A model generated the notes under the pieces. The model was not told where the DNA came from. It saw only the letters and a list, made by a program, of their open reading frames with translations, and searched no databases. From Pseudomonadota bacterium (lineage in GTDB: Bacteria > Pseudomonadota > Gammaproteobacteria > Xanthomonadales > Xanthomonadaceae): 64,000 nucleotides of DNA. The stretch spans positions 310,001-374,000 of the forward strand of contig JAKACT010000001.1 of assembly GCA_021821195.1 (NCBI GenBank). Reading direction: 5' to 3'. The translations under genes and the position numbers were made by a program. This document shows, piece by piece, positions 12,030 through 34,820 of the stretch (the stretch's first letter is position 1; each line of letters starts with the position of its first letter).

Positions 12030-12569
12030 ATGCCACACGCCGCCCGGAGGACGCAGTGGTCCGTTGCCTTGGCATTCCTTGCCCTCTGCTGGCCCCACGC
12101 TCCCTCCGCCGCGGCACGGCAGGACGCCTCCCCTCCCGCCGGAAGCGCCCGTTCCCGCGAAGTCGAAACCGACCCGCAAACCGGTCGGATCCTGCGTTTC
12201 CGCGACGAGCGCGGGGACTTCCGCTACCGCTACGACGCCAACGGGCGGCTGCTAGAAGCGATGCGCGAGGGCGACACCGTCGCCACCCTCGCCTGGAACG
12301 ATCGCAACCTGCCCGCCTCACTGGCGCTGCAGGGCCTGGGCGACGCCTCCCGCCACCAGCTGGCGTTCACCTACGACGCACGCGGCCGGGTGGTTCGCAT
12401 GCGGCTGGACGATCGCGGCACCATCGCCATCCGCTACGGGCGCGACGGCGAGCCGGTGATGCGTTCGACGCTTAACCCCGACGGGCACCGAACCACGTTC
12501 GGGATGTTCGGCACCCTCGCCATGCTCACCCAACCCGCCGGCATCACCATCAGGATCACACCGAAATGA
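12030..12569 (+). CDS. Small secreted YD-repeat protein
   Basis: A 179-residue protein with a signal peptide (about residues 1-28, ending at a PSAAARQ-like site) and several short Rhs/YD-type repeats: TGRILRFRDERGDFRYRYDANGR, LAFTYDARGRVVRMRLDD and IAIRYGRDGEPV. YD repeats normally wind into the shell of Rhs or teneurin toxins; here only about three occur, with no toxin tip, so it is not an Rhs effector. The stop overlaps the ATG of the next gene (ATGA), making it the first gene of a four-gene operon. The start at 12030 is chosen because it begins the signal peptide. Function unknown. Confidence 0.7.
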   Translation: MPHAARRTQWSVALAFLALCWPHAPSAAARQDASPPAGSARSREVETDPQTGRILRFRDERGDFRYRYDANGRLLEAMREGDTVATLAWNDRNLPASLALQGLGDASRHQLAFTYDARGRVVRMRLDDRGTIAIRYGRDGEPVMRSTLNPDGHRTTFGMFGTLAMLTQPAGITIRITPK

Positions 12570-17833: not shown

Positions 17834-19555
17834 TCAGTCGCGCAGGAACAGCTCGCCGATTGCCAGCGCGGTCCTGTACGGCTCCGGATCGTTGCGGTTG
17901 CTCAGCAGTACCACCGTCAGCCGCTGCGCCGGCCAGCGCACGATGACGTTGCGGAAGCCGATGGTTTCGCCGGAGTGCCACAAGGTGTCGCCGGTGATGC
18001 GCCAGCCGAAACCGTAGTGCGCGTCATAGCCCTCGCCCACCACCTTGGCGTGTGGGGCGAACGCCAGCGCGCGCGAGGCGTCCGACAACAGGCGGTCGTC
18101 GCACAGCGCCGCGTCCCAGCGCGCCAGGTCGTCGATGCTCGAATAGATGCCGCCATCGCCCAGCACCGCGCTGGTCGAACTCTGGTCGGTGCGCTGCCAT
18201 CTTTCGACAGGCGCGGCGCCGCTGATCTCGCTGTGGCCGAAGGCCCGGTGCGGCACCTCCGGCCCACCGGCCACATAGGCCAGGCTGCCGTGCATGCCCA
18301 GCGGCTGGAAGATGCGGCTGCGCAGGAAGTCCGGGTAGGCCATGCCCGAGGCGCGCTCCACGACCAGCGCCAGCAGCGCATAGCCACTGTTGCTGTAGCG
18401 GTAGGCGCTGCCCGGCGCGAAGTACAGGCGGTTTTCCTTTTCCAGCAACGCCAGCACCCCGGCGTCGCGGATCTGCCCGTCGTACGGCTCCTGCATCAGG
18501 TCTTCGTAGTCCACCAGCCCGGAGGTGTGGGTGAGCAGCTGGCGCAAGGTGATCGCGGCGGCGGCGTCCGGCAGCGATGGCAGCCATTTGCGCGCCGGGT
18601 CATCAATCCCGAGTTTTCCATCCTGCGCCAGCAGCAGGATCGCGGCGGCGGTGAACTGCTTGCTGACCGAAGCCAGCCGGTAGGCGGTGGCCGGGCCGGC
18701 TTCGACGTCGCGCGCCAGGTCGGCGCGGCCGTAACCGCGCGCCACCACCGCCGCGCCGTCCTCCAGCACCAGCAGGGAAGCGCCGGGAGCTTCGCCCTCA
18801 TAGCGTTGCATCAACGCATCGATGGCGGCGTCGCGGGTCGGGGGCGCAGTCACGGGCACGTCGTAATACCGGTCGGGGGAAGGTTCGGGATCGAGGCGGA
18901 AATGCCACCACTCCTCGGGCAGGTTGGCGAAACCCTCGGCCGCCATCGCGTCGCGCAGCCGGTGGCGGTTGGCGCGCTGGGCGGCGCTGGCCTCGGGACT
19001 GTCGGTATTCGCGCGGGTGCCGAAGAAGTCGAAGGCGGTGCCCATGTCCAGCGGCGTGCAGGCGGCGCCCTGGGCATCGCACTGCAGCAGGGTCAGGTCG
19101 ACGGTGCCGCCGCGGCTGTGCCCGGAAACCGGAGCGATGTAGACGCCGCGCAGCTGCGGCTTGTCGAGGTCGGGATAGAACTCGGCCTTGGTGCGGAGAT
19201 CGGTAGGGTCGTCCATCCAGCGCACGAACTGCGCCACCGCGCGCGCCGGGCGGTAGCAGTCGTACACGCGCAGGCGCTGGTGCTGCTTGCGCAGCGACGC
19301 CTCCACCCGCGCCAGCGCCTGTGCGACTTCGCGCTTGAGCCAGCAGCGCGGCGCCAGGTAGCCGTCGATGGGCACGCCGACGAAGTTGTGGCTGCCGGCA
19401 TATCTGATTTCCTGGGACAGGTCCGGCACCAGCGTGCGGATGTCCACCAGCCCGGCCTCGTCCATGCTGCGCGCGGGCGACAGCACCGGCGCTTCGCCCG
19501 CATGCAGCGGCGCGACGCAGGCCAGCAGGGCCGCAAGCAGCAACGCCCTACTCAC
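17834..19555 (-). CDS. D-Ala-D-Ala dipeptidase (VanX family) fused to a serine beta-lactamase-like hydrolase
   Basis: A 573-residue exported fusion. After a signal peptide (about 1-20) comes a VanX/DdpX-type zinc D,D-dipeptidase (about 28-220) with the arginine of YDCYRPARA, zinc ligands in SGHSRGGTVDLT and the EEWWH pair. It is followed by a class C beta-lactamase-like domain (about 228-573) with the SVSK serine/lysine near 296, YSN near 390 and HSG near 528. Both sites look complete. VanX enzymes cut D-Ala-D-Ala; the second domain could act on D-amino-acid peptides. The GTG start at 19555 overlaps the stop of the upstream serine hydrolase gene, making it the last gene of lysA-hydrolase-fusion. 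The exact peptide substrates are inferred. Confidence 0.88.
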   Translation of the reverse strand: MSRALLLAALLACVAPLHAGEAPVLSPARSMDEAGLVDIRTLVPDLSQEIRYAGSHNFVGVPIDGYLAPRCWLKREVAQALARVEASLRKQHQRLRVYDCYRPARAVAQFVRWMDDPTDLRTKAEFYPDLDKPQLRGVYIAPVSGHSRGGTVDLTLLQCDAQGAACTPLDMGTAFDFFGTRANTDSPEASAAQRANRHRLRDAMAAEGFANLPEEWWHFRLDPEPSPDRYYDVPVTAPPTRDAAIDALMQRYEGEAPGASLLVLEDGAAVVARGYGRADLARDVEAGPATAYRLASVSKQFTAAAILLLAQDGKLGIDDPARKWLPSLPDAAAAITLRQLLTHTSGLVDYEDLMQEPYDGQIRDAGVLALLEKENRLYFAPGSAYRYSNSGYALLALVVERASGMAYPDFLRSRIFQPLGMHGSLAYVAGGPEVPHRAFGHSEISGAAPVERWQRTDQSSTSAVLGDGGIYSSIDDLARWDAALCDDRLLSDASRALAFAPHAKVVGEGYDAHYGFGWRITGDTLWHSGETIGFRNVIVRWPAQRLTVVLLSNRNDPEPYRTALAIGELFLRD

Positions 19556-21107
19556 AGCCGCGCTCCCGCACGAAGGCCAGGTCCTCGTAGTCGGAACTGA
19601 AATCACCGTCGGGATTGAGTTTGGCCATGTGCAGCCGGGCCTTGCCGCCCTCGCGGGAGAATGCCAGCCACGCGTTTTCGTCCACGGCTTCGTCGTCCCA
19701 GACCAGCAGGTGGCGGCCGTCGAGGCGGCTGATCCGGCCGTGCATCTTCGGCGACTTGGCCGCGCGCCATTCCACCGCCTCGCCGACCGCGCAGATCCGC
19801 ACTTCGCCGAACCACGGGTCGCGCCAGACACCCAGCCATTCGCGCAGCTCGCTGGCAGACACCGGCTGGCGCCGGGCGATATCAGGCAGCGCGGCCTTGG
19901 GCGCCGCGGCCGGCGGCGGCGTGGCCAGCGCATCGGCGTAGCCGTCCACGCCCAAGGACCTTTCCGGGGCGGTGAACAGCTTGAGCAGCGCGGTGCCCAG
20001 CACGGTGCGGGCGCTGCCGCCGTCGCCATTGATCATGAACACGAAGCCGGCGCGGCGGTCCGGCAACAGCATCATCATCGAATACATGCCGCCCAGCGTG
20101 CCGGTATGCGAGACCGTCCACTCGCCATCCACGTCGGCCAGGCGGAAGCCATAGGCATAGGCGTAGTAATGGGTGTCGTCCCACTGCCGCTTGAGCCGGG
20201 AGATCGGCATCGGCGTGCGCGCCTTCCACATTTCCGCGCGCTGCGCATCGCCCAGCCACGCTTTCTGCGCATCGGTCGGCGCCAGCCAGCTGTTGGCCCA
20301 GACCAGCATGTCGTCCAGCGTGCAGCGGATGCCGCCGGCGGGCGCCGAGGCAATCGCCGGCACGATGTCGGCATCGCCGCGGGTGCGCACGATCGCATCG
20401 CCATCGCGCCCGTGCGGCTGCGCCACGCTGCCGGCATCCTTCAGAACGAACTCGCCGACGCGGCAGCCCTGCAGTCCCAGCGGCGTGAACAGCTCGCGCC
20501 GCATCAGCTCTTCGTAGGATGCGCCGCCTGCCGCGGCAGCCACCTGCCCGGCCACCACGTACAGCAGGTTGTCGTAGGCGTAGCCGGCGCGGAAGCCGTA
20601 GGCCGGCTTGATGTGGCGCAGCCCGCGGACGATGTCGTCGCGGTCGAACAGATTGGGTTCCGGCCACAGCATCAGGTCGCCGCCGCCTTCGGGCAGGCCG
20701 CTGTTGTGCACCAGCAGGTCGCTGACCGTCATGTGCGCGGTCACCCACGGATCGTGCATGGCGAACGCCGGCAGGTGCTTCACCACCGGGTCGTCCCACT
20801 GCAATTTGCCCTGCTGCACCAGCCGCGCCAGCACCGCGGCGGTCATCGCCTTGCTGTTGGACGCGATCTTGAACAGGGTCTTGTCCGTCACCGGATCGCC
20901 GCTGCCATGCACGGTCTCGCCGTAACCACGCGCGAAGACCACCCTGCCGTCTTCGATCACGCCCACCGCGATGCCCGGCAGCCGGTAGCGGGCGATGACC
21001 TGGCGCACGGTGGCATCGATTGCCTGCGGGTCCGGCCCTGCCGGCGTTGCGGCGGATGCGACGGCCGGCAGCAGCAGGACCAGCAACAGGACAAGGGCGG
21101 GCTTCAT
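19548..21107 (-). CDS. Exported serine hydrolase (beta-lactamase/D-aminopeptidase-like)
   Basis: A 519-residue protein with a signal peptide (MKPALVLLLVLLLPAVASA) and a class C beta-lactamase-like fold: nucleophile in ASNSKAMT, YDN in AYDNLLY, and HTG in SHTGTLGG. The C-terminal 110 residues (LREWLGVWRDPWFGEVRI onward) look like the beta-barrel DUF3471-type extension seen in D-aminopeptidase and esterase relatives. It could be a peptidase, an esterase or a D,D-carboxypeptidase. The ATG at 21107 overlaps the lysA stop (ATGA) behind a GGAAAAG site; an upstream in-frame GTG at 21119 is less likely. Confidence 0.88.
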   Translation of the reverse strand: MKPALVLLLVLLLPAVASAATPAGPDPQAIDATVRQVIARYRLPGIAVGVIEDGRVVFARGYGETVHGSGDPVTDKTLFKIASNSKAMTAAVLARLVQQGKLQWDDPVVKHLPAFAMHDPWVTAHMTVSDLLVHNSGLPEGGGDLMLWPEPNLFDRDDIVRGLRHIKPAYGFRAGYAYDNLLYVVAGQVAAAAGGASYEELMRRELFTPLGLQGCRVGEFVLKDAGSVAQPHGRDGDAIVRTRGDADIVPAIASAPAGGIRCTLDDMLVWANSWLAPTDAQKAWLGDAQRAEMWKARTPMPISRLKRQWDDTHYYAYAYGFRLADVDGEWTVSHTGTLGGMYSMMMLLPDRRAGFVFMINGDGGSARTVLGTALLKLFTAPERSLGVDGYADALATPPPAAAPKAALPDIARRQPVSASELREWLGVWRDPWFGEVRICAVGEAVEWRAAKSPKMHGRISRLDGRHLLVWDDEAVDENAWLAFSREGGKARLHMAKLNPDGDFSSDYEDLAFVRERGCE

Positions 21108-22357
21108 GCGCTTTTCCACTCGTTCGCGGGGCGTTCGTCGGCGATCATCGCATCGAAGTCCTGGCGCTTGCGGACCAGCGCGTAGCGGCCATCCTCCACC
21201 AGCACTTCCGCCGCCAGCGGGCGCGAGTTGTAGGTCGATGCCATCGACGCGCCATAGGCACCCGCGCCGAGGATGGCGACCAGATCGCCGGCCTCGCAGC
21301 GCGGCATCTCGCGCTGCCGGGCGAAGGTGTCGCCGGTCTCGCAGACCGGGCCGACCACGTCATAGGCCACGCGCTCGCGGCCGGCATCGCCGCCGACCCG
21401 CACGATGTCATGCCAGGCGTCGTACAGGCTGGGCCGCAGCAGGTCGTTCATGCCTGCGTCCAGCATCAGGAAGCGACGCGCGCGGCCGTGCTTTTCCAGC
21501 ACCACGCGGGTCAGCAGCAGCCCGGCTTCGGCCATCAGCCAGCGGCCTGGCTCCACCAGGATGCGTCCGCCGAAACCGGCCAGCGCTTCGCGGATCGCGG
21601 CCGCGTAGGCGGCCGCCTCCGGCGCCACTTCGCCATCACGGTAACGCACGCCAAGGCCGCCACCCACGTCGATACTGGCGATGGCATGGCCGGCGGCTTC
21701 CAACTCGCGCCAGAACGCGGCCATCCGCTGCAGCGCCTCGCGCACCGGCTGCAGGCTCAGCAGCTGCGAGCCGATGTGCATGTGCAGGCCGTCCAGGCGC
21801 AGGTTCGGCCACTGCGCGGCGCCATCGAACCACGCCCGCGCCTCGTCCGTCGGCACGCCGAACTTGTTCTCCGCCTTGCCGGTGGAGATCTTGGCGTGGG
21901 TGAGCGCATCCACGTCGGGATTGATCCGTACCGACGCCACCGCGACGCATCCGCGGGCAGCCGCGATGCGCTGGATGGCATCGAGCTCCGCACGCGATTC
22001 CACGTTGAAGCGGTCGATGCCCGCGGCCAGCGCCGCGTCGATTTCCGCGTCAGTCTTGCCGACCCCGGAAAACACGATGTCGGCCGCGGCGATGCCCGCA
22101 CGCAGCGCGCGTTCCATCTCGCCACCGGAAACGATGTCCGCACCCGCGCCCTCGGCTGCCAGCAGCCGTAGGATCGCGCCGTTGCCGTTGGCCTTGACCG
22201 CGTAGCGGATGCCGGCATCCAGCCCCGCCAGCGCATCGCGCAGTGCGCGAACGCGCCCGCGGATCGCCGGCGCCGAATACACGTAAAGCGGCGTACCTTC
22301 GCGTGCCGCCAGCGCCGCCAGCGCCACGCCCTCGACCGTGCCCGTTGTCGCGTCCAT
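21104..22357 (-). CDS. lysA: Diaminopimelate decarboxylase
   Basis: PLP enzyme that converts meso-diaminopimelate to L-lysine, 417 residues. Motifs: PLP lysine in YAVKANGN, HIGSQ, the phosphate-binding GGGLG, EPGRWL, the CETGD cysteine contributed across the dimer, and GAYGASMASTYNSRP. It is the stand-alone form; many Xanthomonas carry LysA fused to an aspartokinase. The ATG at 22357 is preferred (GGAAG upstream); an in-frame TTG at 22381 is the longer option. It leads an operon with two exported peptidase-like genes, which suggests use of DAP from digested cell walls as well as biosynthesis. Confidence 0.95.
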   Translation of the reverse strand: MDATTGTVEGVALAALAAREGTPLYVYSAPAIRGRVRALRDALAGLDAGIRYAVKANGNGAILRLLAAEGAGADIVSGGEMERALRAGIAAADIVFSGVGKTDAEIDAALAAGIDRFNVESRAELDAIQRIAAARGCVAVASVRINPDVDALTHAKISTGKAENKFGVPTDEARAWFDGAAQWPNLRLDGLHMHIGSQLLSLQPVREALQRMAAFWRELEAAGHAIASIDVGGGLGVRYRDGEVAPEAAAYAAAIREALAGFGGRILVEPGRWLMAEAGLLLTRVVLEKHGRARRFLMLDAGMNDLLRPSLYDAWHDIVRVGGDAGRERVAYDVVGPVCETGDTFARQREMPRCEAGDLVAILGAGAYGASMASTYNSRPLAAEVLVEDGRYALVRKRQDFDAMIADERPANEWKSA

Positions 22358-22379
22358 CCAGCGCACTTCCGTTCCGTTC

Positions 22380-22409
22380 AAAAAAAATGGCGGCCCGGCT
22401 AGGGCCGCC
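22380..22409 (-). terminator. Intrinsic terminator of the TonB-dependent receptor gene
   Basis: A perfect eight-base stem (GGCGGCCC with GGGCCGCC, loop of five) is followed on the minus strand by an A and then eight T residues. It lies 41 bases past the receptor stop codon and just before lysA, so it separates the receptor transcript from the lysA operon. Confidence 0.88.
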
Positions 22410-22450
22410 TCCAGGGGAACCGCAAAATAAACAGGGATACGGCGCAGGGA

Positions 22451-25429
22451 TCAGTAGTTCCAGGTCACGACCAGCTGGGTGTAGCGCGGCGACTGCCAGC
22501 CCCAGCCTTCGCCGAAGTGCGGCATCTTGTTGCCGGGCGTGCTCTCGTAACGCGAGTGCACCTCCACCACCGTCTGCTCGTTGAGCAAGTTATAGACCGA
22601 GAGGCGTGCCTTCAGATCCACGCCCGGCACCGGCAGCGACCAAGTGATGTTGGCACTCAGGTCCTTCACCCACGGCATCCGGCCGAACGCCCCACGCGGC
22701 GAATAGACCAGTTCACGCGTGGTGTAGTCGCCGCAGCCCGAGACGCACAACCAGCCAGAACCACCACCCGACGATTCCCTGGGACCACCCGCAGAGCGGT
22801 TGTCGTTCGGCCAACGCACGCCATAGGCCGTGATCGGGCCGCCGGAAATGGCGGAGAAGGTCGCGCCAATGCTCCAGGTTTCGTTGAACTTATAGCTGCC
22901 GCGCAGCTTGAGTTGGTGCCGGTGGTCGTTGAACAGGACGCCATAGCGCTCGTTGACCGCGGGATGATCGTAATACTGGACCAAGTTGGTCCAGTTCAAC
23001 CCCGTGTCGGAGTTCACCGGGCCTTCGACGTTGCCCTCGCTCTTCGACCAGATGTAGCTGGCATTGAAAGCCCACTTGTCGTCCCAGGCGCGGTCAAGCT
23101 GGAACTCCACCGCCTTGTAGGTGCGCCGAGGCTTCTTGTAGCCCATGACCACTTTGCTGCCGGACGTGATCCAGCCATCCTGCGAATTGTCGAACGTCAC
23201 CCATTCTTCGGTATCCGGACACCAAAGAGTGTTGGTCTCCCCAGGATTCAAAATCGGCCAGTCACCCGAGTACCAGTCGCACCCTTCGACGTGCCGGATA
23301 CTGACATCCTCAACCGCACGGGTCACGCGACGGTAAGTCGCATTCACGCCATACGACCACTCGTGGTTGATCGCCTGCTGGAAGCCGAGGATGAACTCGT
23401 CCTGGAAGACCTGCTTGAGGTCGCGCGCGACCGCCGTCCTCATGTCGGAAGGCGCGGGGGCGTTCATGTCGGTGTTGACAGGGCCGATCTGCGCCCCGAG
23501 CTTCGGCAGGAGATAAGGCGCGCCGGTCGTCGGATGGGCGCCCTGTGTCCAGCCGTCGAGCACATAGTAGGTATGCTCGTCAGTGGTGCCTCCGCCAAAA
23601 TAGTCGGTGATCTTGTTCGTCAGGGGAGTGTAGTAACGACCCGCATTGCCAAAGACCTTCGTGGTGCCATCGCCCTTGACGTCCCAGCTGAAGCCCAGGC
23701 GCGGGGAAATCATGTCACTGAAATCGGCCGCGGCGAACGTTGCGCCAGAGGCGAGCGTGTTGGTGAACTTGTCGGCGCGCACGCCAAGGCTCAACAACAG
23801 GTTCGGAGTAATGCTCCAATTGTCCTCAAGGTAGAGCGCCTGCACCTTGGTGCTCACCGGGGAGCCGGTGATGAAGCGCCGCACATCGACGATGGCATTG
23901 ACGCCCGCGGGAATGACGGTGCCGTTCAGCGGACCTCCCGGTGTGGCTCCCAGCACCGAATAACTGAGGCCATCACCAGGGTAGTACGACGAACTATCGG
24001 AATCGGAGACTTCCTGGTCGGCACCAAAGCGCAGGAGGTGGTCGCCGAGCGTCCATTCGAAGTCCAGCCTTGCCGCCCTGCGCTCGTCTTCGCGGTTGTT
24101 GATGGCGCCGTTGCTCGGATGGCAGCCTTCGGGCGTGGTCTTCGGCCCGAACTTGGTGGTATAGGCGCCATCACGGCTGACGATGCTGCAGTCGCCGTCC
24201 AGCGGCGTACCGCTGAGGCTGCTGCGCTTGTTGACGCCATACAGCGCCTTGGCCATGAAGTTGTCGCCGAAGTGGCCGGTATAGGTCAGCGACCAGTTGT
24301 CGCCGCCGGAGCCGGCGGTGCTGCTGCCGCGGGACTCCCCGCGGGCTTGGCTGTCCCAGTCATACCCGTACTTTTCCGTGGTCGAGTCGGCCTTGTCGGA
24401 AAATGCCAGGAACTCCAACTTGTGGTCGTCGCTGATCTGCCAATCGAGCTTGGCGCCCCAAAAATCGTTCTTGCTTTCGGTGTACCAGGCTTCGGTGGTA
24501 TCGATGTCCCTGGGACTGCTGTCACGCACCTCATACATCGCGAAGAAGAACAGCCTGTCTTTCAGGATGGGGCCAGACGCCCAGATATTCGTCTTGTAGA
24601 ACGGACTCGCATCGCGACTGGTGCGGTCGCGCTCCACAAGGTCGCCATCCTTGTAGAAGCGATCGGTGGTGGATGCCGCCCATGCCGCCGGCTGCATGGT
24701 GACCTGTGCGCCCGCATGGAACTCGTTGCCACCGGAACGGGTTACTGCGTTGATCACGCCGCCGGTACTGCGGCCAAACTCGGCCGAATAACCACCCGTC
24801 TTGACCTGCACTTCCTCATAGAAGTTGAACGGAACCGACGAATACCCCTGGCGGTAGTAGGGGTCGGTTACGTTCAATCCATTGATGTAAGCCACGTTCT
24901 CCGCCATCGACGAACCACCGAAAGAGAGGCCGCCCAAGGCCGCCGAAGGCACTACGCCGGGCGCCAGCAGCGCAACCGAGCCAAGGCTTTGGTCCACCGG
25001 CAGGCGCGCGATTTCCTCGCGGGTGATGTTCGTCGCAGACTCGGTCGAATACACGTCCACGCGATTTACTACTCGTGACCCGATCACCTGCACGGCACTG
25101 AGGTTCACTGCGCCGCTGTCGGTCAGGTTGACGGTCGTGGTGCCGCCCAAGGAGACGGTGACGAGGACGGGCTCGCCCGAGCCCGAGCTTAAGCGGTACT
25201 GACCCGGCGGGAGCTGGGCGATGCGATAGCTGCCATCGGCACTGACCTTCGCGCTGCGGGTTTGACCGGTCGCGGCATTGGTGATCGTGAGTTCCGTTCC
25301 AGCCTGGGCACGGCCTGCCACCGCACCGGTGACTGCCTGCGCAAGCGCGGGAGCAGCAACGAACGACGATAGGCACAAGCCCATGGCGATACTGAGTACG
25401 GACTTGCGCAAATTGCGGGTGCTGCTCAT
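22451..25429 (-). CDS. TonB-dependent receptor, Oar type
   Basis: A 992-residue outer-membrane transporter. Signal peptide at about 1-31 (ending APALAQA), a carboxypeptidase-regulatory-like beta sandwich (about 34-95), the plug domain (about 110-225, with INGLNVTDPYYRQGY and GGYSAEFGRSTGGVINAVT), and a 22-strand barrel ending in the aromatic TWNY. This architecture is that of the Oar subfamily common in Lysobacter and Xanthomonas. The imported ligand is unknown; location between DAP/peptide enzymes suggests peptides or murein fragments. The start ATG at 25429 follows GAGAGGT. It is divergent from the NlpC/P60 operon and ends at a strong terminator. Confidence 0.93.
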   Translation of the reverse strand: MSSTRNLRKSVLSIAMGLCLSSFVAAPALAQAVTGAVAGRAQAGTELTITNAATGQTRSAKVSADGSYRIAQLPPGQYRLSSGSGEPVLVTVSLGGTTTVNLTDSGAVNLSAVQVIGSRVVNRVDVYSTESATNITREEIARLPVDQSLGSVALLAPGVVPSAALGGLSFGGSSMAENVAYINGLNVTDPYYRQGYSSVPFNFYEEVQVKTGGYSAEFGRSTGGVINAVTRSGGNEFHAGAQVTMQPAAWAASTTDRFYKDGDLVERDRTSRDASPFYKTNIWASGPILKDRLFFFAMYEVRDSSPRDIDTTEAWYTESKNDFWGAKLDWQISDDHKLEFLAFSDKADSTTEKYGYDWDSQARGESRGSSTAGSGGDNWSLTYTGHFGDNFMAKALYGVNKRSSLSGTPLDGDCSIVSRDGAYTTKFGPKTTPEGCHPSNGAINNREDERRAARLDFEWTLGDHLLRFGADQEVSDSDSSSYYPGDGLSYSVLGATPGGPLNGTVIPAGVNAIVDVRRFITGSPVSTKVQALYLEDNWSITPNLLLSLGVRADKFTNTLASGATFAAADFSDMISPRLGFSWDVKGDGTTKVFGNAGRYYTPLTNKITDYFGGGTTDEHTYYVLDGWTQGAHPTTGAPYLLPKLGAQIGPVNTDMNAPAPSDMRTAVARDLKQVFQDEFILGFQQAINHEWSYGVNATYRRVTRAVEDVSIRHVEGCDWYSGDWPILNPGETNTLWCPDTEEWVTFDNSQDGWITSGSKVVMGYKKPRRTYKAVEFQLDRAWDDKWAFNASYIWSKSEGNVEGPVNSDTGLNWTNLVQYYDHPAVNERYGVLFNDHRHQLKLRGSYKFNETWSIGATFSAISGGPITAYGVRWPNDNRSAGGPRESSGGGSGWLCVSGCGDYTTRELVYSPRGAFGRMPWVKDLSANITWSLPVPGVDLKARLSVYNLLNEQTVVEVHSRYESTPGNKMPHFGEGWGWQSPRYTQLVVTWNY

Positions 25430-25521
25430 AACCTCTCCCCGGTCGATGATTGGATTGCCCTGGATGCCGCGGCACGCGGGATTCCCGCCCCTCGCCTGCC
25501 ATCGGCAGCGACTGTCTTGGC

Positions 25522-25550
25522 TGTGTAACACGTGGGGAAAGTGTGGTCAA
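25522..25550 (-). promoter_or_regulatory. Candidate promoter for the TonB receptor
   Basis: On the minus strand TTGACC (25550-25545) and TACACA (25527-25522) are 17 bases apart, about 93 bases upstream of the receptor ATG. The -10 match is weak. It lies in the unusually AT-rich divergent region. Confidence 0.3.
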
Positions 25551-25560
25551 TAATTTATTC

Positions 25561-25590
25561 TTGACGTATAACAATCTCGAATCACATATT
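25561..25590 (+). promoter_or_regulatory. Candidate promoter for the NlpC/P60-epimerase operon
   Basis: TTGACG (25561-25566) and CATATT (25585-25590) are 18 bases apart in an AT-rich patch of an otherwise GC-rich chromosome, about 74 bases upstream of the ATG at 25664. The divergent receptor promoter lies within 40 bases, so one regulator could control both directions. Confidence 0.4.
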
Positions 25591-25663
25591 CCGCAGCGCA
25601 CAATCCGTAACATCGCCCGCACCGGCCATCACCCGGCTACGGACACTCTCTGAAGGAGTCGGA

Positions 25664-27097
25664 ATGACATCCATGCGATCCACCCGCGCCGGAATGCCGG
25701 CCATGCGCATGCTGGCCTTGGCGTTGGCATTGGCGACCCTGCCGGGCATGGCGCGCACGCCGCAGGCCAACCCACTACCGGTGCCTGCGCACGGCGTCGT
25801 CGGCGTCGCGGACGCCCAGCTCAGCCCGGATTTCTGGATCGCCCGCGCCCAAGCCCCGGATGCACCGCTGATGACGCGCGCTGCCATCGACGCCCGCAAC
25901 GCCCGGCTGCTGCGCGAAGACACGTCGATGCACGACCTGGCCGCGCTGCCGGCAACGCTGGCAAGCAAGCAGGTGACCGACTGGATCAGCGGCCTGGCCT
26001 CGCCGCCGACGCGCGCGCTCTGGGATGAAGCCGGCAATCCAGTGGCGAAGGCCGCCCTTGATGCCATCGTCGCCAACCGCGCGCTCGACGCCATCCCCGC
26101 CAGCCAGCCGACCCGCTTCGGCATGGCCGTCCAGCGTGCCGCGCTGCGCGCCTTCCCGACGGCGCTGCGCGTGTTCAACAGCAACGACGACGCCGACATC
26201 GACCGCTTCCAGGAAAGCGCGCTGTTCCCGGGCGACCCGGTGGTGATCGCGCATGCCAGCGGCGACGGCCAATGGCTGTTCGTGGTCAGCCCGCGCTACG
26301 CCGCGTGGGTGGAGGCCACGGCGATCGCAGCTGGCAGCCGCGATGCCGTGCTGGGCCATGGCCAGCGCACGCCCTACCGGGTCATCACCGGCGCCAAGCC
26401 GCGCACCGTGTTCACCCGCGAGGAGCCGCGCCTGTCCGAGCTGCAGCTGGACATGGGCACCCGCGTGCCGCTGGCGCAGGCGGCGCCGGACCAGCCGGTC
26501 AACGGCCAGCACCCCTACAGCGCGTGGACCCTGTCGCTGCCGGTGCGCAACGCCGACGACCGGCTGGCGTTCGCGCCCGCGCTGCTGCAGAAAATCGCCG
26601 ACAGCCAGGCCGACTACCTGCCGCTGACTCGCGCCAACATCCTCCGCCAGGCCTTCAAGTTCCTCGGCGAACGCTACGGCTGGGGCCATTCGTACAACGG
26701 CCGCGATTGCAGCGGCTTCGTCTCCGACGTGTACCGCAGCATGGGCGTGCAGTTGCCGCGCAACACCAGCGCGCAGGCGGTCAGCCCGGTGTTCGCGCGC
26801 ACCCGCTTCACCCCGGATGACACGCGGGCAACGCGCATGGCCGCAATCAAGTCCCTGCAGATCGGCGACCTGGTCTACATCCCCGGCCACGTGATGATGT
26901 ACATCGGCGACATCGACGGCATGCCCTACGTGATCCACGACACCAATGGCGGTACCGTGCTCGGCGCGGACGGCAAGCCGCGTTCGCTGCGCCTCAACGG
27001 CGTCTCGGTCACCCCGCTGCTACCGCTGCGCTTCGGCAAGGACCACGATTACGTGGATCGCATCACCAACATCGTCAAGGTGGCAGCTGCCCAATGA
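25664..27097 (+). CDS. Exported NlpC/P60 peptidase with SH3-like domains (YkfC type)
   Basis: A 477-residue protein with an N-terminal export signal (about 1-32), SH3b-like modules (about 120-290) and an NlpC/P60 cysteine-peptidase domain (about 300-460). The catalytic Cys349 lies in GRDCSGFVSDVY, the histidine in GHVMMYIGD (about 409) and the third polar residue in VIHDTNG. This domain order is that of gamma-D-glutamyl-L-diamino-acid endopeptidases such as YkfC, which cut between D-Glu and DAP in stem peptides with a free L-Ala. GAAGGAG lies just before the ATG. The stop overlaps the epimerase ATG, mirroring the ykfC-ykfB linkage of Bacillus. Confidence 0.9.
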   Translation: MTSMRSTRAGMPAMRMLALALALATLPGMARTPQANPLPVPAHGVVGVADAQLSPDFWIARAQAPDAPLMTRAAIDARNARLLREDTSMHDLAALPATLASKQVTDWISGLASPPTRALWDEAGNPVAKAALDAIVANRALDAIPASQPTRFGMAVQRAALRAFPTALRVFNSNDDADIDRFQESALFPGDPVVIAHASGDGQWLFVVSPRYAAWVEATAIAAGSRDAVLGHGQRTPYRVITGAKPRTVFTREEPRLSELQLDMGTRVPLAQAAPDQPVNGQHPYSAWTLSLPVRNADDRLAFAPALLQKIADSQADYLPLTRANILRQAFKFLGERYGWGHSYNGRDCSGFVSDVYRSMGVQLPRNTSAQAVSPVFARTRFTPDDTRATRMAAIKSLQIGDLVYIPGHVMMYIGDIDGMPYVIHDTNGGTVLGADGKPRSLRLNGVSVTPLLPLRFGKDHDYVDRITNIVKVAAAQ

Positions 27098-28200
27098 AGA
27101 TCACTGACATCCGCTTCGGCATGCTGCGCGTGCCGCTGAAAACCCCGTTCAAGACCGCGCTGCGCACCGTCGAGCAGGTGGAGGACGTGGTGGTGATGGT
27201 GCACACCGACGATGGCCACGTGGGCTACGGCAGCGCACCCGCCACCGCGGTCATCACCGGCGACACCCACGGCTCCATCGTCGAGGCCATCCGCCACTAC
27301 ATCGCGCCGCGCCTGGTCGGCCACGAGATCGCCAACCTCAACCACCTCACCCACCTGGTGCAGGGCGCGATGGAGAAGAACACCAGCGCCAAGGCGGCGG
27401 TGGAGATCGCCCTGTACGACCTATGGGGCCAGCTGTACCGCGCGCCGATCTACCAGCTGCTGGGCGGCGGCGACCCGGCCATCACCACCGACATCACCAT
27501 CAGCGTGGACTACATCGACAAGATGGTGGCGGACTCGCTGGCGGCGGTGGAGCGCGGCTTCGAATCGCTGAAGATCAAGGTGGGCAAGGACATCGGCCTG
27601 GACATCGAGCGCACCAAGGCGATCCACGCCGCTGTGGAAGGCCGCGCCCTGCTGCGCCTCGACGCCAACCAGGGCTGGACCGCCAAGCAGGCGGTGTATG
27701 CGCTGCAGACGCTGGAGGATGCGGGGGTCAAGCTCGAACTGGTCGAACAGCCGGTCAAGGCGCACGACCTGGCCGGCCTGCGCTACGTCACCGAGCGCGT
27801 GCACACCCCGGTGATGGCCGACGAAAGCGTGTTCGGCCCGCGCGAGGTGGTGGAGCTGATCCGCATGCGCGCCGCCGACATCGTCAACATCAAGCTGATG
27901 AAGACCGGCGGCATTTCCAACGCGGTCAAGATCGCCGACATTTGCAGCCTGTACGGGATCGACTGCATGATCGGCTGCATGCTTGAATCCAGTATCGGCG
28001 TGGCCGCGGCCGTGCACTTGGCGGTGGCGAAGTCGGACGTGATCAGCAAGGTGGACCTCGACGGGCCGTCGCTGTGCCGCTTCGACCCGGTGCAGAGCGG
28101 CGTGGTGTTCAACGAATCGGAGATCAGCGTGACCGACGCACCGGGACTGGGCATCCGCCACATCGAAGGCCTCGCGCCCGCGCATGACCTGGCCGCCTGA
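27094..28200 (+). CDS. L-Ala-D/L-Glu epimerase (dipeptide epimerase, enolase superfamily)
   Basis: A 368-residue enolase-superfamily enzyme of the muconate-lactonizing subgroup. Catalytic lysines lie in SLKIKVGK (about 159-161) and NIKLMK (about 267); the metal ligands are the Asp of RLDANQGW, the Glu of LVEQP and the Asp of MADES. The DLDGP motif near 322-325 is the Asp-x-Asp signature that holds the ammonium group of a dipeptide, which points to L-Ala-D/L-Glu epimerase (YcjG/YkfB) rather than a sugar-acid enzyme. It would turn murein-derived L-Ala-D-Glu into L-Ala-L-Glu for ordinary dipeptidases. It overlaps the peptidase gene by ATGA. Confidence 0.93.
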   Translation: MKITDIRFGMLRVPLKTPFKTALRTVEQVEDVVVMVHTDDGHVGYGSAPATAVITGDTHGSIVEAIRHYIAPRLVGHEIANLNHLTHLVQGAMEKNTSAKAAVEIALYDLWGQLYRAPIYQLLGGGDPAITTDITISVDYIDKMVADSLAAVERGFESLKIKVGKDIGLDIERTKAIHAAVEGRALLRLDANQGWTAKQAVYALQTLEDAGVKLELVEQPVKAHDLAGLRYVTERVHTPVMADESVFGPREVVELIRMRAADIVNIKLMKTGGISNAVKIADICSLYGIDCMIGCMLESSIGVAAAVHLAVAKSDVISKVDLDGPSLCRFDPVQSGVVFNESEISVTDAPGLGIRHIEGLAPAHDLAA

Positions 28201-28210
28201 GGCAATCCCG

Positions 28211-29059
28211 GTGGGCACGGCGCTGGTCAAGATCCGCTCCGAGCGCGACCGCATGTCGGCGATCGAGCGGCGCATCGCCGACTTCATCGTCGAGAACGCC
28301 CAGCTGCTGCGCGACTACTCCTCGCAGCAGCTGGCCAACGCGCTGGGCATCAGCCAGTCCAGCGTGGTCAAGTTCTGCCAGAAGCTCGGCTTCAAGGGTT
28401 ATCCGGACCTCAAGCTGGCGATCAACGAGGCGGTGATCCGCGCCGACAGCAACGGCAGCACGCAGCCGCTGCCGCAGGATGCCTCGCACGCGGCCGCGCA
28501 GGGCTACGGCCTGTGGCTGCGCAAGTCGGAGGCCGAGGAAGCCACCCGCCTGATCAACCCACCCGGCACCCTGACCGCCGTGGCCGAGGCGATCGGACGC
28601 GCCGGCACGGTGTTCATCATCGGCCTGGGCGAAGACGACCTGCACGCGCGCACGCTGGCGCTGCGGCTGGCCCAGCTGGGCATCCTCACCGTGCACAACT
28701 TCGACGCCGCGCACATGACCGCCAGCTTGTCCGCGGCCAGGCCGGACGACGTGCTACTGGCGTTCTCCGAGCACGGCCAGCAGCCCGCGCTGGGCCAACT
28801 GGCGCGGCATATGCGCAGCCAGCGCGGCAAGGTAGTGACCATCACCCGCCACAGCGCCAATGCCCTGCGCGCGCAGGCCGACCTGGCGATGCTGGTGTCC
28901 GCGCACGACGAGCGCACGCACATCGAGCCGCTGCTCTACCACTCCGCCCTGCAGCACCTGCTCGACCGGCTGTTCATCCGCCTGTACGAAGCCGACGGCG
29001 CGCGCCGCGCCCGCCTGCAGGAAACGCTGGAGCGCATCCAGCCGCTGCTGGAACCGTGA
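28211..29059 (+). CDS. RpiR/MurR-family transcriptional regulator with a degenerate SIS domain
   Basis: About 282 residues: an N-terminal helix-turn-helix of the HTH_6 (RpiR) type (about 5-80, SSQQLANALGISQSSVVKFCQKLGFKGYPDLK) and a C-terminal SIS fold (about 110-260). In MurR-like proteins the SIS domain binds a sugar phosphate through SxSGxT; here the block reads AFSEHGQQP and the first loop GLGEDD lacks the usual serine, so a different ligand is likely. It sits in the peptidase-epimerase-transporter operon and probably controls it. GTG 28211 is chosen because TGAGG precedes it; ATG 28184, inside the epimerase gene, is the alternative. Confidence 0.87.
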   Translation: MGTALVKIRSERDRMSAIERRIADFIVENAQLLRDYSSQQLANALGISQSSVVKFCQKLGFKGYPDLKLAINEAVIRADSNGSTQPLPQDASHAAAQGYGLWLRKSEAEEATRLINPPGTLTAVAEAIGRAGTVFIIGLGEDDLHARTLALRLAQLGILTVHNFDAAHMTASLSAARPDDVLLAFSEHGQQPALGQLARHMRSQRGKVVTITRHSANALRAQADLAMLVSAHDERTHIEPLLYHSALQHLLDRLFIRLYEADGARRARLQETLERIQPLLEP

Positions 29060-29156
29060 TGGCCTGGCCTCGCCTCGGGCAGGCAATGACGACATCCCCA
29101 CCCGGCCGGAACCCCCCGGCAAAAGCCCGCTACGATTCCACGATTACCCGGACCCA

Positions 29157-29957
29157 ATGACGATGCCGATCCGCCGCACCACCACCGCCCTGCTTGCCCT
29201 GGCGCTCGCCGCCTGCGCCCATCGCACCGGACTACCTTCCGCGGATGCCCAGCACTGGGCGGACGCACGACAGCTGGTGCTGGTGACGTCCGCCGACTGG
29301 GACGCCACCGGTGGCGAGCTGCGCCGCTTCGAGCGCAACGGCGATGGTGACGGCTGGAAGCAGGTCGGCGAGGCGATGCCGGTGACGCTGGGCCGCGGCG
29401 GCAGCGGCTGGGGCCTCGGCCTGAACCCGCAGCGCGGCGACGGCCCGGTCAAGCGCGAGGGCGACGGCAAGGCGCCGGCCGGCGTGTTCGCCATCGGCAC
29501 CGCGTTCGGTTACGCCGACAGCGCGAACACCGGCCTGCGTTACCAGGCGATGACCGCCAATGACTGGTGCATCGACGTGCCGGCCTCGAACTACTACAAC
29601 AGGATCATCGACCGCAGCACGGTCAAGGCGCCCTACCTCGACCAGTCCAGCGAGCCGATGCGCCGCGACCTGCATGCCGACGGCGACCAGCGTTACCGGG
29701 AAGGCTTCGTGATCGAACACAACGAAGGCGGCGTGGAGCGCCAAGGCGGCAGCTGCATCTTCGCCCACCTGTGGAAGGCGCCCGGGGAAACCACCGCTGG
29801 CTGCACCGCGATGGCGCCGGCCAGCATGGACGCGCTGCTGGCATGGCTGGATGCGGGCCGCAGGCCGGTGTTCGTGCTGCTGCCGAAGGCCCAGTACGTG
29901 GCGCTGAAGCGGGATTGGAAGCTACCGGAAATCACCGCGCCGGAGGCCCGCCCGTGA
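29157..29957 (+). CDS. L,D-transpeptidase (YkuD)-family lipoprotein
   Basis: A 266-residue putative lipoprotein: lipobox ALAAC near residue 21, then a YkuD-type domain of the COG3786 group. Landmarks are KREGDGKAPAGVFAIG, YYNRIIDR, FVIEHN, FAHLWKAPGETTAGCTAM with the likely nucleophile Cys216, and a C-terminal PVFVLLP strand. YkuD enzymes form or cut bonds at DAP in murein; this subgroup may instead be a carboxypeptidase. The gene follows the regulator by about 100 bp, and its stop overlaps the transporter GTG. ATG 29157 and ATG 29163 are both possible starts. Confidence 0.87.
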   Translation: MTMPIRRTTTALLALALAACAHRTGLPSADAQHWADARQLVLVTSADWDATGGELRRFERNGDGDGWKQVGEAMPVTLGRGGSGWGLGLNPQRGDGPVKREGDGKAPAGVFAIGTAFGYADSANTGLRYQAMTANDWCIDVPASNYYNRIIDRSTVKAPYLDQSSEPMRRDLHADGDQRYREGFVIEHNEGGVERQGGSCIFAHLWKAPGETTAGCTAMAPASMDALLAWLDAGRRPVFVLLPKAQYVALKRDWKLPEITAPEARP

Positions 29958-31210
29958 GCCAGACCACGCGCGTGCTGGCCGGCCTCGTCGCCGGTATCGT
30001 CCTCGGCATCCTGCTGGCATGGCTGGCGCCGGATACCGGGTTGCGGATCGCCGCCGTCGTCGAGCCGTTCGGCAAGCTCTGGCTCAACGCCCTGCAGATG
30101 ACCGTGGTGCCGTTGGTATTCGCGCTGGTGGTGGTGGGCATCAACCAGGCCAGCGACGCCGCCCATTCCGGGCGGGTGGCGCGGCAGGCCATCGTCAGCT
30201 TCGTGGTGCTGCTGGCCGCCGCTGCCGCGATGGCCGCCGTGCTGGCGCCGCTGGCGCTGTCGATGCTGCAGCCCGATCCGGCCGTGGCCGCCGCGCTGCG
30301 TGGCCATGCGCAGGACATCGCGCCCCCCGCCGGCGGCTGGGCCGAGGCCCTCGTCGCACTCGTCCCCAGCAATGCCGTTTCCGCCGCCGCGGCCTCGGCG
30401 ATGCTGCCGCTGGTGACGTTCGCGCTGTTCTTCGGCTTCGCCCTGACCCGCCTTGCGCCCGAGCCGCGCGCGCAGGTGGTGGGACTGCTGAAGGCGATCA
30501 GCGACGCGATGATCGTGATCGTGCACTGGGTGCTGTGGGCCGCGCCAGTGGGCATCTTCGCGCTGGTGCTGGCGCTGACAGCGCGCGCCGGCCTCGGCAT
30601 GCTGCAGGCGCTGGGCATCTACATCCTGCTGGAATGCGCGTTGTACGTGCTGGCGGTGGTACTGCTGGTCGCGGTGGCGATCACCGTGGGCAAGCGCCGG
30701 TTCGGCCACTTCATGGGCGGGCTGGTGCCGGTGCAGGCGGTGGCGGCCAGCACGCAATCGTCGCTGGCCACGCTGCCGGCGATGCTGGACAGCGCGCAGA
30801 ACCGGCTGGGCATCCCCGCCCGCGTGTCTGGGCTGGTGCTGCCGATGGCGGTGTCGCTGTTCCGCATCACCTCGCCGATCCAGTACATCGCCACCGCCTG
30901 CTTCATCGCCTGGGCGCTGGGCGTGGACCTGACCGCCGCGCAGCTGGCCACGGGCGTTGCGCTCAGCGTGCTGGTCAGCATGGGCTCGGTGGGCCTGCCG
31001 GGCCAGGCGATCTTCCTCGCCACCAACCTGCCGGTGACCACCGCGATGGGCCTGCCGATCGCGCCGCTGCCGGTGCTGATGGCGGTGGACGCCATCCCCG
31101 ACGTGCTGGCCACCGTGGGCAACGTCACCGGCGACATGACCGCGACGGCGGTGGTGGCGGCGCGCTGCGGCGAGCCGGAACAAGCGGTTCCATCCGAAAC
31201 CACCGCTTGA
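29954..31210 (+). CDS. Dicarboxylate/amino acid:cation symporter (DAACS family)
   Basis: A 418-residue membrane protein of the SDF family (glutamate/aspartate/C4-dicarboxylate symporters, GltP/DctA-like), with eight or so membrane helices and two re-entrant loops. The serine-rich loop AASTQSSLATLP, the following PMAVSLFRITSPIQYIATA helix and the late GLPGQAIFLATNLPVTTAMGLPI region are the substrate- and cation-site signatures. It starts at a GTG inside the stop of the L,D-transpeptidase gene. It would bring in glutamate or similar products of murein-peptide breakdown; the actual substrate is inferred from context. The thr operon follows directly. Confidence 0.92.
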   Translation: MSQTTRVLAGLVAGIVLGILLAWLAPDTGLRIAAVVEPFGKLWLNALQMTVVPLVFALVVVGINQASDAAHSGRVARQAIVSFVVLLAAAAAMAAVLAPLALSMLQPDPAVAAALRGHAQDIAPPAGGWAEALVALVPSNAVSAAAASAMLPLVTFALFFGFALTRLAPEPRAQVVGLLKAISDAMIVIVHWVLWAAPVGIFALVLALTARAGLGMLQALGIYILLECALYVLAVVLLVAVAITVGKRRFGHFMGGLVPVQAVAASTQSSLATLPAMLDSAQNRLGIPARVSGLVLPMAVSLFRITSPIQYIATACFIAWALGVDLTAAQLATGVALSVLVSMGSVGLPGQAIFLATNLPVTTAMGLPIAPLPVLMAVDAIPDVLATVGNVTGDMTATAVVAARCGEPEQAVPSETTA

Positions 31211-33891: not shown

Positions 33892-34820
33892 GCGCCGTGC
33901 GATACGAGGCGCGGGCGTTCGCACCCGGTTCGGTCGGCAATGTCGGCGTCGGCTTCGACGTACTCGGCCACAGCATCGCCGGCATCGGCGATGTCGCCAT
34001 CGTGCGCCGCATCGAGGCGCCGACGGTGCGGATCAGTGCCATCCGCGGCGCCGTCACCGACCTGCCGCTGGAGGCCGCGCGCAACACGGCCGGAATGGCG
34101 CTGATCGCCCTGCGTGAGGCGCTGGCGCTGCCGTTCGGCTTCGAGATCGAGATCGACAAGGGCATCCCGCTGGGCTCCGGGCTGGGCGGCTCGGCCGCGT
34201 CCTGCGTGGCCGCGCTGGTGGCGGCGAACGCGTTGCTGGAGGTGCCGCTGTCGCCCCACGCCCTGTATCCGCATGCGCTGGCCGGCGAAGCCGTGGCCAG
34301 CGGCGGCCGCCATGGCGACAACGTCGGGCCGATGCTGCTGGGCGGGCTGGTGCTGGCCACCGCGGACCGGCTGACGAAGATCGAGGTACCAGCCGCATGG
34401 CACGCGGCGGTGGTGCATCCGCACGCGGTGCTGGAAACCCGCCGCGCGCGCGAAGCGCTGGCCGGGGCCTATGCGCTGAAGGAATTCGTCGCGCAAAGCG
34501 CGAATCTGGCGCAGGTGCTGCTGGGCTGCGAGCGTGGCGACGCGTCGCTGGTGCGGGCCGGCCTTGCGGACGTGCTGGTGGAGCCACGCCGCGCGCCGCT
34601 GATCGCGGGTTTCGCGGCAGTGAAGCAAGCCGCACTGGAGGCCGATGCCATGGGCGCCAGCATTTCCGGCGCGGGGCCCAGCGTGTTCGCCTGGTGCGAG
34701 GATGAAGCCACCGCACGGCGCGCGGGCGGCGCGATGACGGCTGCATTCGCCGCCGCCGGCATCGACAGCGACCTGCACCTCACCGCCATCGCCGGACCGG
34801 CCGCGCGGGTGCTGGCATGA
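33888..34820 (+). CDS. thrB: Homoserine kinase
   Basis: GHMP-family kinase that phosphorylates L-homoserine, 310 residues. The phosphate-binding loop [14 protein letters not shown] is intact, the N-terminal [19 protein letters not shown] and the C-terminal [11 protein letters not shown] blocks are typical. It starts at a GTG (33888) that overlaps the thrA stop and ends in ATGA overlap with thrC, so the three enzymes are tightly coupled. Confidence 0.97.

Follow-up and report, generated by a model that had tools for sequence, protein, structure and literature searches.

A Divergent Gene Island of Thermomonas and Its Relatives as a Putative RpiR-Controlled Regulon for the Salvage of Peptidoglycan Stem Peptides

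Introduction

The salvage of murein peptides is known from Bacillus and Escherichia coli. In the ykfABCD-dppBCDE genes of B. subtilis and the ykfBC genes of B. cereus, an epimerase gene adjoins that of an NlpC/P60 gamma-D-Glu-diamino-acid endopeptidase, and in E. coli the MpaA-YcjG-PepD route leads from the tripeptide to diaminopimelate (DAP) and L-Ala-D-Glu, and from the latter to L-Ala-L-Glu (as outlined in the parts of PMC2954226 on these systems). Here we analyze a divergent island of nine genes at positions 17834–31210 of a 64,000-nucleotide stretch of DNA, the window (GenBank assembly GCA_021821195.1, contig JAKACT010000001.1, positions 310,001 to 374,000 of the forward strand), from a member of the Xanthomonadaceae. 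The genome has 2.92 Mb in 13 contigs. The closest named relative of its epimerase, 99% identical, is that of a Thermomonas metagenome-assembled genome (L004), and alignment blocks shared with L004 beyond the receptor gene are 82–99% identical, so we take the bacterium to be a Thermomonas. We consider the island to be probably one regulon for the catabolic salvage of peptidoglycan stem peptides that is controlled by its own RpiR-family regulator. What was computed is gene content, conserved gene order, co-occurrence, a site between the arms, and the covariation of this site with the RpiR gene.

The Island and Its Genes

All nine genes proposed in the initial annotation were confirmed by Pfam and NCBIfam profiles, which were applied to the whole set, and sequence searches of the PDB covered three of them. 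Most of the family labels given there stood, with active-site motifs intact, but "YkfC type" for the NlpC/P60 protein and "dicarboxylate symporter" did not, as discussed below. The features are as follows.

17834..19555, minus strand: predicted secreted fusion of a VanX-type D-Ala-D-Ala dipeptidase and a class C-like serine hydrolase (PF01427, 132 bits; PF00144, 228 bits)
19548..21107, minus strand: SerH, predicted secreted class C-like serine hydrolase (PF00144, 218 bits; DUF3471 match below cut-off)
21104..22381, minus strand: LysA, diaminopimelate decarboxylase, island copy (TIGR01048, 465 bits, cut-off 298)
22451..25429, minus strand: Oar-like TonB-dependent receptor (PF25183, PF07715)
25522..25550, minus strand: proposed minus-arm promoter, found by eye (TTGACC at 25550-25545, 17 nt, TACACA at 25527-25522), overlapping the operator
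25546..25560, plus strand: predicted RpiR operator GTCAATAATTTATTC (exact 15-mer in 132/137 divergent promoters)
25664..27097, plus strand: predicted exported NlpC/P60 gamma-D-Glu-meso-DAP endopeptidase of the DvLysin/PnpA type (SH3_6 and NLPC_P60)
27094..28200, plus strand: predicted L-Ala-D/L-Glu (dipeptide) epimerase of the enolase superfamily (best PDB match 1jpm, an L-Ala-D/L-Glu epimerase, 345 bits)
28184..29059, plus strand: RpiR-family regulator with altered SIS ligand loops (PF01418, PF01380)
29157..29957, plus strand: YkuD-domain lipoprotein, proposed L,D-carboxypeptidase/transpeptidase (PF03734, 26.8 bits, cut-off 23.4)
29954..31210, plus strand: SDF-fold symporter with a non-canonical substrate site (PF00375, 255 bits)

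Read outward from the promoter, the minus arm runs Oar-LysA-SerH-VanX/serine hydrolase and the plus arm NlpC-epimerase-RpiR-YkuD-SDF. The Oar start codon (ATG at 25429) and that of NlpC (ATG at 25664) leave exactly the 234 bp originally reported for the divergent promoter. Starts were corrected for the fusion (19555, a GTG), SerH (21107), Oar (25429), YkuD (29157), and SDF (29954), and ATG 22357 is a possible alternative start for LysA. The GTG of the fusion was chosen because of a signal-peptide-like sequence; the open frame extends further, over 19556–20029, where SerH is encoded in a different frame. In the plus arm, NlpC and epimerase overlap by 4 bases, YkuD and SDF by 4, and epimerase and RpiR by 17, an arrangement that looks operon-like.

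Conservation of the Island across the Family

Our family sample comprises 149 genomes, 90 of which carry the epimerase (called at E ≤ 1 × 10−60). From 85 of these, 86 loci were fetched, as G057 contributes two (L086 and L169); left out were the window's own genome and G030, G071, G092, and G124 (matches close to a contig start). Adequate flanks, meaning at least 7.5 kb upstream and at least 3.5 kb downstream of the epimerase, were present at 80 of the 86 loci. Genes were detected by tblastn with identity thresholds, and the counts are taken from it because clustering of open reading frames (ORFs) lost genes that were masked by shadow ORFs. In 78 of the 80 loci, the island genes that were detected follow a single order, the exceptions being L103 and L169, where the serine-hydrolase gene lies on the other side, and all detected genes lie on the expected strand except two SerH (57/59). 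NlpC was detected in 77 of these loci, RpiR in 65, Oar in 62, YkuD in 62, a transglutaminase-like gene in 61, SerH in 59, SDF in 38, VanX in 33, a DUF819 gene in 18, and LysA in 17, where the values for VanX, SerH, and LysA are lower bounds because the flanks end there. Across the 149 genomes, NlpC and the epimerase occur together in 90, the epimerase alone in none, NlpC alone in 8, and neither in 51 (p = 8.5 × 10−32, Fisher; here and below, P values take no account of phylogeny). The conserved order and this co-occurrence thus indicate that the grouping of the genes is not due to chance. The arms are conserved together in relatives, as the single pathway first proposed had presupposed.

Loci from named relatives agree with these results; they come from Rhodanobacter, Dyella, Luteibacter, Frateuria, Fulvimonas, Luteimonas, Pseudoxanthomonas, Lysobacter, and others. 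This set consists of the best 80 of 423 candidates (66 of them long sequences) and is for that reason biased to close kin; at least nine of its loci recur in the family set. The initial annotation had linked the island to a bacteriolytic, Lysobacter-like lifestyle. This link is not sustained, as Rhodanobacter, Dyella, Luteibacter, Frateuria, and Pseudoxanthomonas have the island too, and a prey-lysis scenario is not needed for its distribution.

Two genes recur at these loci that are both absent from the island of the window. The transglutaminase-like gene (PF01841) stands first in the minus arm in 61/80 family loci and in 62/66 long named-relative sequences, and the DUF819 membrane protein (PF05684) first in the plus arm in 18/80 and 50/66, respectively. 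The ancestral island was presumably larger than that of the window. A gene of the Amidase_2 type (N-acetylmuramoyl-L-alanine amidase; assigned by Pfam on the L119 gene only) is found in 18 of 167 sequences, that is, 166 loci and the window; 16 of these genes are on the minus-arm strand, and two pairs among the 18 sequences are close kin. In G057 (C4:15229-38801, covering L086 and L169), there are two epimerase islands, one with LysA, Oar, and transglutaminase-like genes but without RpiR, the other with RpiR.

A Conserved Site between the Arms

Divergent regions were cut wherever they were bounded by Oar or the transglutaminase-like gene and, at the opposite end, by NlpC or DUF819, yielding 147 regions, and 137 after near-identical ones had been removed (67 from the family, 69 from named relatives, and that of the window). 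The 15-mer GTCAATAAWTTATKC is exact in 132 of these 137 promoters; it has one mismatch in three, two in one, and three in one (G+C-rich genomes). In the 136 regions that match at least 13 of the window's 20 bases, a single base reaches 98% or more in 13 of the 15 columns. In the window, the 15-mer occupies 25546–25560 inside a perfect 20-bp dyad, GTCAATAATTTATTCTTGAC, that ends at 25565. This extension to a 20-bp dyad is found in Thermomonas, and the window site is the sole match in its own genome to the dyad pattern GTCAANAATNNATTNTTGAC at up to 3 mismatches.

A scan of the 149 genomes for the exact 15-mer found 69 sites in 67 genomes (reversed control, 0), and all 67 genomes carry the epimerase. 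The island promoter accounts for 67 of the 69 sites (63 fetched loci, the window, and G030, G071, and G124 by their NlpC coordinates). The remaining two precede TonB receptors. In G003, the island locus (L137) shows no Oar, which is found on another contig behind the site (L204:5621-5635; open frame from 5641, probable ATG 5719). In G117, the second site lies about 0.3 kb upstream of a further, interrupted receptor frame, behind an amidase gene (L119). A one-mismatch site stands before the same kind of receptor in G005, in a rearranged arm (L103).

The site covaries with the regulator gene. An RpiR gene of the island type is present in 73 of the 90 epimerase genomes and in none of the 59 others. 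At the 86 loci, the best match to the 15-mer was sought within 700 bp upstream. RpiR-bearing loci have a match with 0–3 mismatches in 68 of 69 cases, the exception being L110, whose contig begins about 255 bp before NlpC, whereas 15 of the 17 RpiR-less loci have 5–11 mismatches. Of these 15, 12 have the NlpC arm and upstream sequence; the other three, L168, where upstream sequence is missing, and L154 and L155, where the epimerase has no NlpC next to it, are little informative by themselves, and their genomes are without the exact site. A perfect site without RpiR is found in two loci. One is L086, and its genome carries RpiR in another island; the other is L153, a contig of 3.6 kb whose end falls inside the epimerase. 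At ≤2 mismatches, 67 loci have both RpiR and site, 2 RpiR only (L110 and L115), 2 the site only, and 15 neither; in the 90 epimerase genomes, 66 have RpiR and the exact site, 7 RpiR only, 1 the site only (G114, of L153), and 16 neither (p = 1.8 × 10−11). Both states occur and change together within five genera (g1, g7, g10, g11, and g47). RpiR-less loci generally have more divergent epimerases (49–79% identity), and some of these islands may therefore have been acquired separately. We read the RpiR protein as the regulator and the 15-mer as its putative operator. A candidate operator shared between arms that are conserved together speaks for the idea, already contained in the initial annotation, of one regulon for murein peptides.

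The 15-mer overlaps a minus-strand TTGACC that lies 17 nt from TACACA, and the next conserved block, TGTGTAACA, covers TACACA and fits a −10 element. A generic promoter scan offered two plus-strand candidates, at 25525–25554 and 25561–25590, the latter beginning inside the dyad's right half. The 15-mer might be an unusually conserved core promoter, with TTGACC as its −35, rather than an RpiR operator. We consider this highly improbable, because 13 of 15 columns at ≥98% one base go far beyond a −35, because RpiR-less loci that have the NlpC arm are without the 15-mer, and because it recurs ahead of Oar and other TonB receptors.

These receptors also bear on whether the island takes up murein from outside. 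Its enzymes could instead recycle the cell's own murein in the periplasm, during growth or under beta-lactam stress, with the TonB receptor serving another substrate. The recycling of wall sugars is under the control of RpiR regulators such as MurR; the cell's own wall is a possible target of VanX, YkuD, and class C-like hydrolases, and Oar was not detected in 18 of the 80 loci. Nevertheless, the Oar of G003 has the site in front of it although it lies outside the island, further TonB receptor frames stand behind the site in G117 (the interrupted one) and G005, and PnpA, a relative of the NlpC/P60 enzyme, is secreted and targets the murein of other bacteria according to the part of PMC7860986 on its activity. 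Turnover of the own wall is therefore an unlikely reading of the island.

A side observation concerns the Oar gene of the window. Compared with L004, its 250-column blocks from about 22500 to 25415 are 54–70% identical, and the flanking blocks are 82–99% identical, most of them above 90% (the last block, beyond the end of L004, excluded). The receptor allele appears to have been swapped, as a replaceable cassette that may be under phage, bacteriocin, or substrate selection.

The RpiR protein has the SIS loops GLGEDD and SEHGxQ, as opposed to GTGSSG/SLSGST or GVGASS/SSSGST in solved relatives, and its Asp151 and Glu196 are invariant in 33 sequences. Ser/Thr SIS loops bind the phosphate in RpiR regulators that respond to phosphosugars. 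The altered loops and the invariant Asp151 and Glu196 thus speak against a sugar phosphate as the ligand; one that bears an amine, for instance DAP or L-Ala-gamma-D-Glu, would fit them.

The genes might also be independently useful cassettes (VanX/NlpC/YkuD/SDF, the epimerase, LysA) that are merely neighbors. A reduced cassette does occur in L209 and L210, in which VanX is divergent from NlpC-(YkuD)-SDF without epimerase, RpiR, or LysA, and SDF is found without an island neighbor in L207, L208, and L212. The site and the RpiR type are, however, confined to epimerase genomes, and the gene order is nearly fixed, which makes such a chance neighborhood quite improbable.

Predicted Enzymes

The epimerase has Lys160/Lys162 and Lys267, Asp190, Glu218, and Asp243, Asp321/Asp323, and Arg24. 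We take the lysines of the KxK...K pattern to be catalytic, the Asp/Glu/Asp set to bind the metal, and the DxD motif to hold the peptide amine. The protein reached no NCBIfam epimerase cut-off, and no signal peptide is apparent. Within the same genus, the epimerase of G081 (C7:105558-106660, L166) appears as two overlapping matches, residues 1–175 and 174–368, possibly a decaying gene or an assembly error. L043 and L045 have a second gene of the epimerase cluster and one of a gamma-glutamyltranspeptidase cluster (Pfam on the L009 member) further downstream.

In the minus arm, the fusion protein has the SxHxxGxxxD and EWWH motifs and the Arg of DxYRP all intact, which we take to be the signature of VanX dipeptidases. 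It scores 157 bits with the NCBIfam VanX model (equivalog cut-off of 320, not reached) and 112 bits, below the cut-off, with the PRK13128 D-aminopeptidase model; its serine hydrolase part appears D-aminopeptidase/DD-peptidase-like. The SxxK/YxN/HxG motifs are intact in both serine hydrolase domains of the island. LysA exceeds its equivalog cut-off (see list above), and its own genome has a second match over the cut-off at C4:665678. LysA of the island type (≥57% identity) occurs in 20 genomes, all with the epimerase (p = 2.7 × 10−5), and lies inside the island in 18 of them (17 fetched loci and the window); in the other two, G114 and G041, it is on another contig of a fragmented assembly. Non-island matches, among them one in the window's own genome at C4:665660, are about 36–44% identical and mostly in frames of about 860 residues or more, epimerase-less genomes included, a length that fits an aspartate kinase-DAP decarboxylase fusion. 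As the island type is confined to epimerase genomes and other LysA proteins are found elsewhere, the island LysA is an extra copy that is tied to the island.

Neither by sequence nor by fold does the YkuD protein match a PDB entry significantly; its top fold matches are L,D-transpeptidases at E values of 0.02–0.07, below significance. The role of an L,D-carboxypeptidase is a guess, made because this step is otherwise missing. An FAD-dependent oxidoreductase gene resembling D-amino-acid oxidase (PF01266; Pfam on L021 only, where it lies at 14011–15153) is found downstream of the plus arm at 17 loci, as might be expected if D-amino acids are released.

The NlpC/P60 protein matches 3m1u (DvLysin) at 110 bits, 6sqx (PnpA) at 72, and 3h41 (B. 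cereus YkfC, BcYkfC) at 27; the last match spans the NlpC/P60 part only, whereas that with DvLysin and PnpA runs through the SH3b and NlpC/P60 parts. Cys349 and His409 of the catalytic dyad are invariant. The YkfC assignment had to be abandoned, as Asp256, called essential for BcYkfC in the relevant part of PMC2954226, is Asn here. Among the 160 readable members of the 167-sequence set, window included, 157 have Asn at this position and 3 (L024, L026, and L039) have Asp. DvLysin and PnpA, which cut gamma-D-Glu-meso-DAP, are the closest solved relatives. As described in part of PMC7860986, secreted PnpA acts on the murein of other bacteria and makes this cut in muropeptides that bear N-acetylmuramic acid (MurNAc), and its authors propose nutrient gain from dead neighbors as one role. 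The island enzyme may consequently act ahead of an amidase, which would fit the amidase genes at some loci.

VanX, relatives of gamma-D-Glu-meso-DAP endopeptidases, a YkfB-like epimerase, a DAP decarboxylase, and Amidase_2 (18/167 sequences) represent stem-peptide chemistry, pointing to murein as the substrate. Class C-like and NlpC/P60 domains do act on varied peptides, and the pathway might serve another D-amino-acid or gamma-glutamyl peptide, such as poly-gamma-glutamate. We know of no role of VanX, LysA, or Amidase_2 in the use of poly-gamma-glutamate, and as all three fit murein at these loci, a substrate of this kind is scarcely credible.

Transport

The symporter had been annotated as a dicarboxylate/amino-acid symporter, but it does not have the Arg that recognizes the acidic side chain. 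The Arg in transmembrane helix 8 (Arg397 of GltPh) is Ala, and NMDGT is FRITS, so that the glutamate/dicarboxylate identity was rejected and no substrate is assignable. Ala386, Arg304, Ser307, and Pro308 are invariant in 33/33 aligned sequences. The protein model (predicted local distance difference test score, pLDDT, 80.4) has the GltPh/ASCT fold (best Foldseek E = 5.6 × 10−16). According to their titles, solved structures of GltPh R397C contain the ligands L-cysteine, L-serine, and S-benzyl-L-cysteine, making a neutral amino acid such as alanine a likelier substrate than glutamate; the new Arg304 leaves this less firm. The SDF clade (≥50% identity; the G007 match is partial) occurs in 51/149 genomes, 45 with and 6 without the epimerase (p = 4 × 10−7), and since it does occur without the epimerase, L-Ala-D-Glu is an unlikely substrate.

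In some relatives, the plus arm begins with DUF819, a member of the CPA/AT transporter clan (as classified in the part of PMC8396727 on this family). A DUF819 orthologue elsewhere in the window's genome was considered and rejected, as the sole match is a 32% paralogue whose best site within 16 kb has 5 mismatches; the genome has two POT permeases and one OPT permease besides this distant DUF819. The 38 of 86 loci that lack a DUF819 or SDF match, together with L059, L061, L064, and L079, were examined for a universal local permease, and among recurrent ORF clusters compared by eye, without a profile search, none stood out. Transport is the weak link of the salvage reading.

Directly downstream of the island, in Thermomonas, are thrA (aspartokinase/homoserine dehydrogenase), thrB, and thrC (window 31405–36109), and SDF adjoins thrA also in L208, from an epimerase-less genome of the same genus. 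Upstream of the island, window 12566–15487 encodes a protein with VIT and DUF2135 domains.

A Model of Salvage and Its Control

From the genes and the site, we infer enzyme activities, a transport route, DNA binding, an inducer, and the sign of regulation. Murein fragments would enter through the Oar receptor of the outer membrane. Once in the periplasm, they would lose terminal D-Ala to the VanX/serine-hydrolase enzymes and the YkuD lipoprotein, the NlpC/P60 enzyme would cleave gamma-D-Glu from meso-DAP, and an amidase, linked or unlinked, would release the peptide from MurNAc. The epimerase would convert L-Ala-D-Glu to L-Ala-L-Glu, usable by general peptidases, and the island LysA would convert meso-DAP to lysine. 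RpiR would bind GTCAATAAWTTATKC, overlapping the proposed minus-arm promoter, and repress both arms until an inducer releases it; a peptide or DAP is likelier in this role than a sugar phosphate. Repression by occlusion is the simplest model, as the 15-mer overlaps candidate promoters. A more specific version, an order-wide regulon of the Lysobacterales in which RpiR responds to a wall peptide or DAP rather than to a sugar phosphate and acts through a 15-bp operator that most genomes have only once, Oar imports muropeptides, and an SDF protein whose pocket has been rebuilt transports alanine or DAP, is tentative, and we lean somewhat against its holding in full.

Several observations weigh against a single salvage regulon. 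RpiR was not found in 17 of the 90 epimerase genomes, 16 of which are without the exact site too, so that the regulator is not obligatory. LysA was detected in only 17/80 loci, and eight genomes carry NlpC without the epimerase. Of the six epimerase-less SDF genomes, three have SDF beside NlpC and three have no NlpC. Neither SDF nor DUF819 was detected in 36/80 loci, leaving no universal inner-membrane permease. The substrates of the YkuD protein and the serine hydrolases are not readable from sequence, the generic scan did not list the proposed minus-arm promoter, the 15-mer could in part be core promoter, and kinship among the genomes is left out of the co-occurrence P values.

Comparison with Known Systems

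Among the matches listed in our literature search, there was no description of this island or its site, although one could be in print elsewhere. Solved relatives of single components exist. DvLysin (3M1U) shares with the island endopeptidase the Asn, in an LPRN motif, and the text of PMC7860986 on DvLysin and PnpA describes no comparable operon. The phosphosugar regulators of the MurR/RpiR kind (7en5, 8txl, and 4ivn) share the HTH_6 and SIS architecture but have Ser/Thr ligand loops where the island RpiR has GLGEDD and SEHGxQ. Similarly, GltPh, EAAT, and ASCT share family and fold with the symporter but have the helix 8 Arg and NMDGT in place of Ala and FRITS. In Neisseria meningitidis, as at loci of the island's relatives, DUF819 adjoins a peptidase of the M15 (VanX) family, but the pair stands alone in the methylcitrate-cycle region, and no function is given for it in that part of PMC12671195. 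The murein-dipeptide permease that is still missing may be sought in DUF819 or SDF.

The closest likeness is to the ykf genes, whose pairing of epimerase and endopeptidase recurs in the island, as does the signal peptide on the B. cereus endopeptidase and its absence from the epimerase. By the account of PMC2954226 on these genes, their neighbors are Dpp/Opp, and no TonB receptor, VanX, LysA, YkuD, or RpiR is named there; the ykf endopeptidase also has Asp256 instead of Asn. With E. coli the island shares the route itself, but the endopeptidase MpaA is an unrelated metallo-enzyme, and the same source, in its part on that route, names no receptor or dedicated LysA. The theme is thus known, and the switch, the receptor, and the gene set seem new. 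A Gram-negative order seems to keep this salvage as a locus resembling carbohydrate utilization loci, with a receptor, periplasmic enzymes, cytoplasmic finishers, and its own switch, and the locus offers a candidate operator, a candidate non-sugar RpiR ligand, and a candidate Oar substrate. In its predicted working, the island would be a salvage system of the ykf type, set apart by its receptor, its dedicated LysA, and its regulator.

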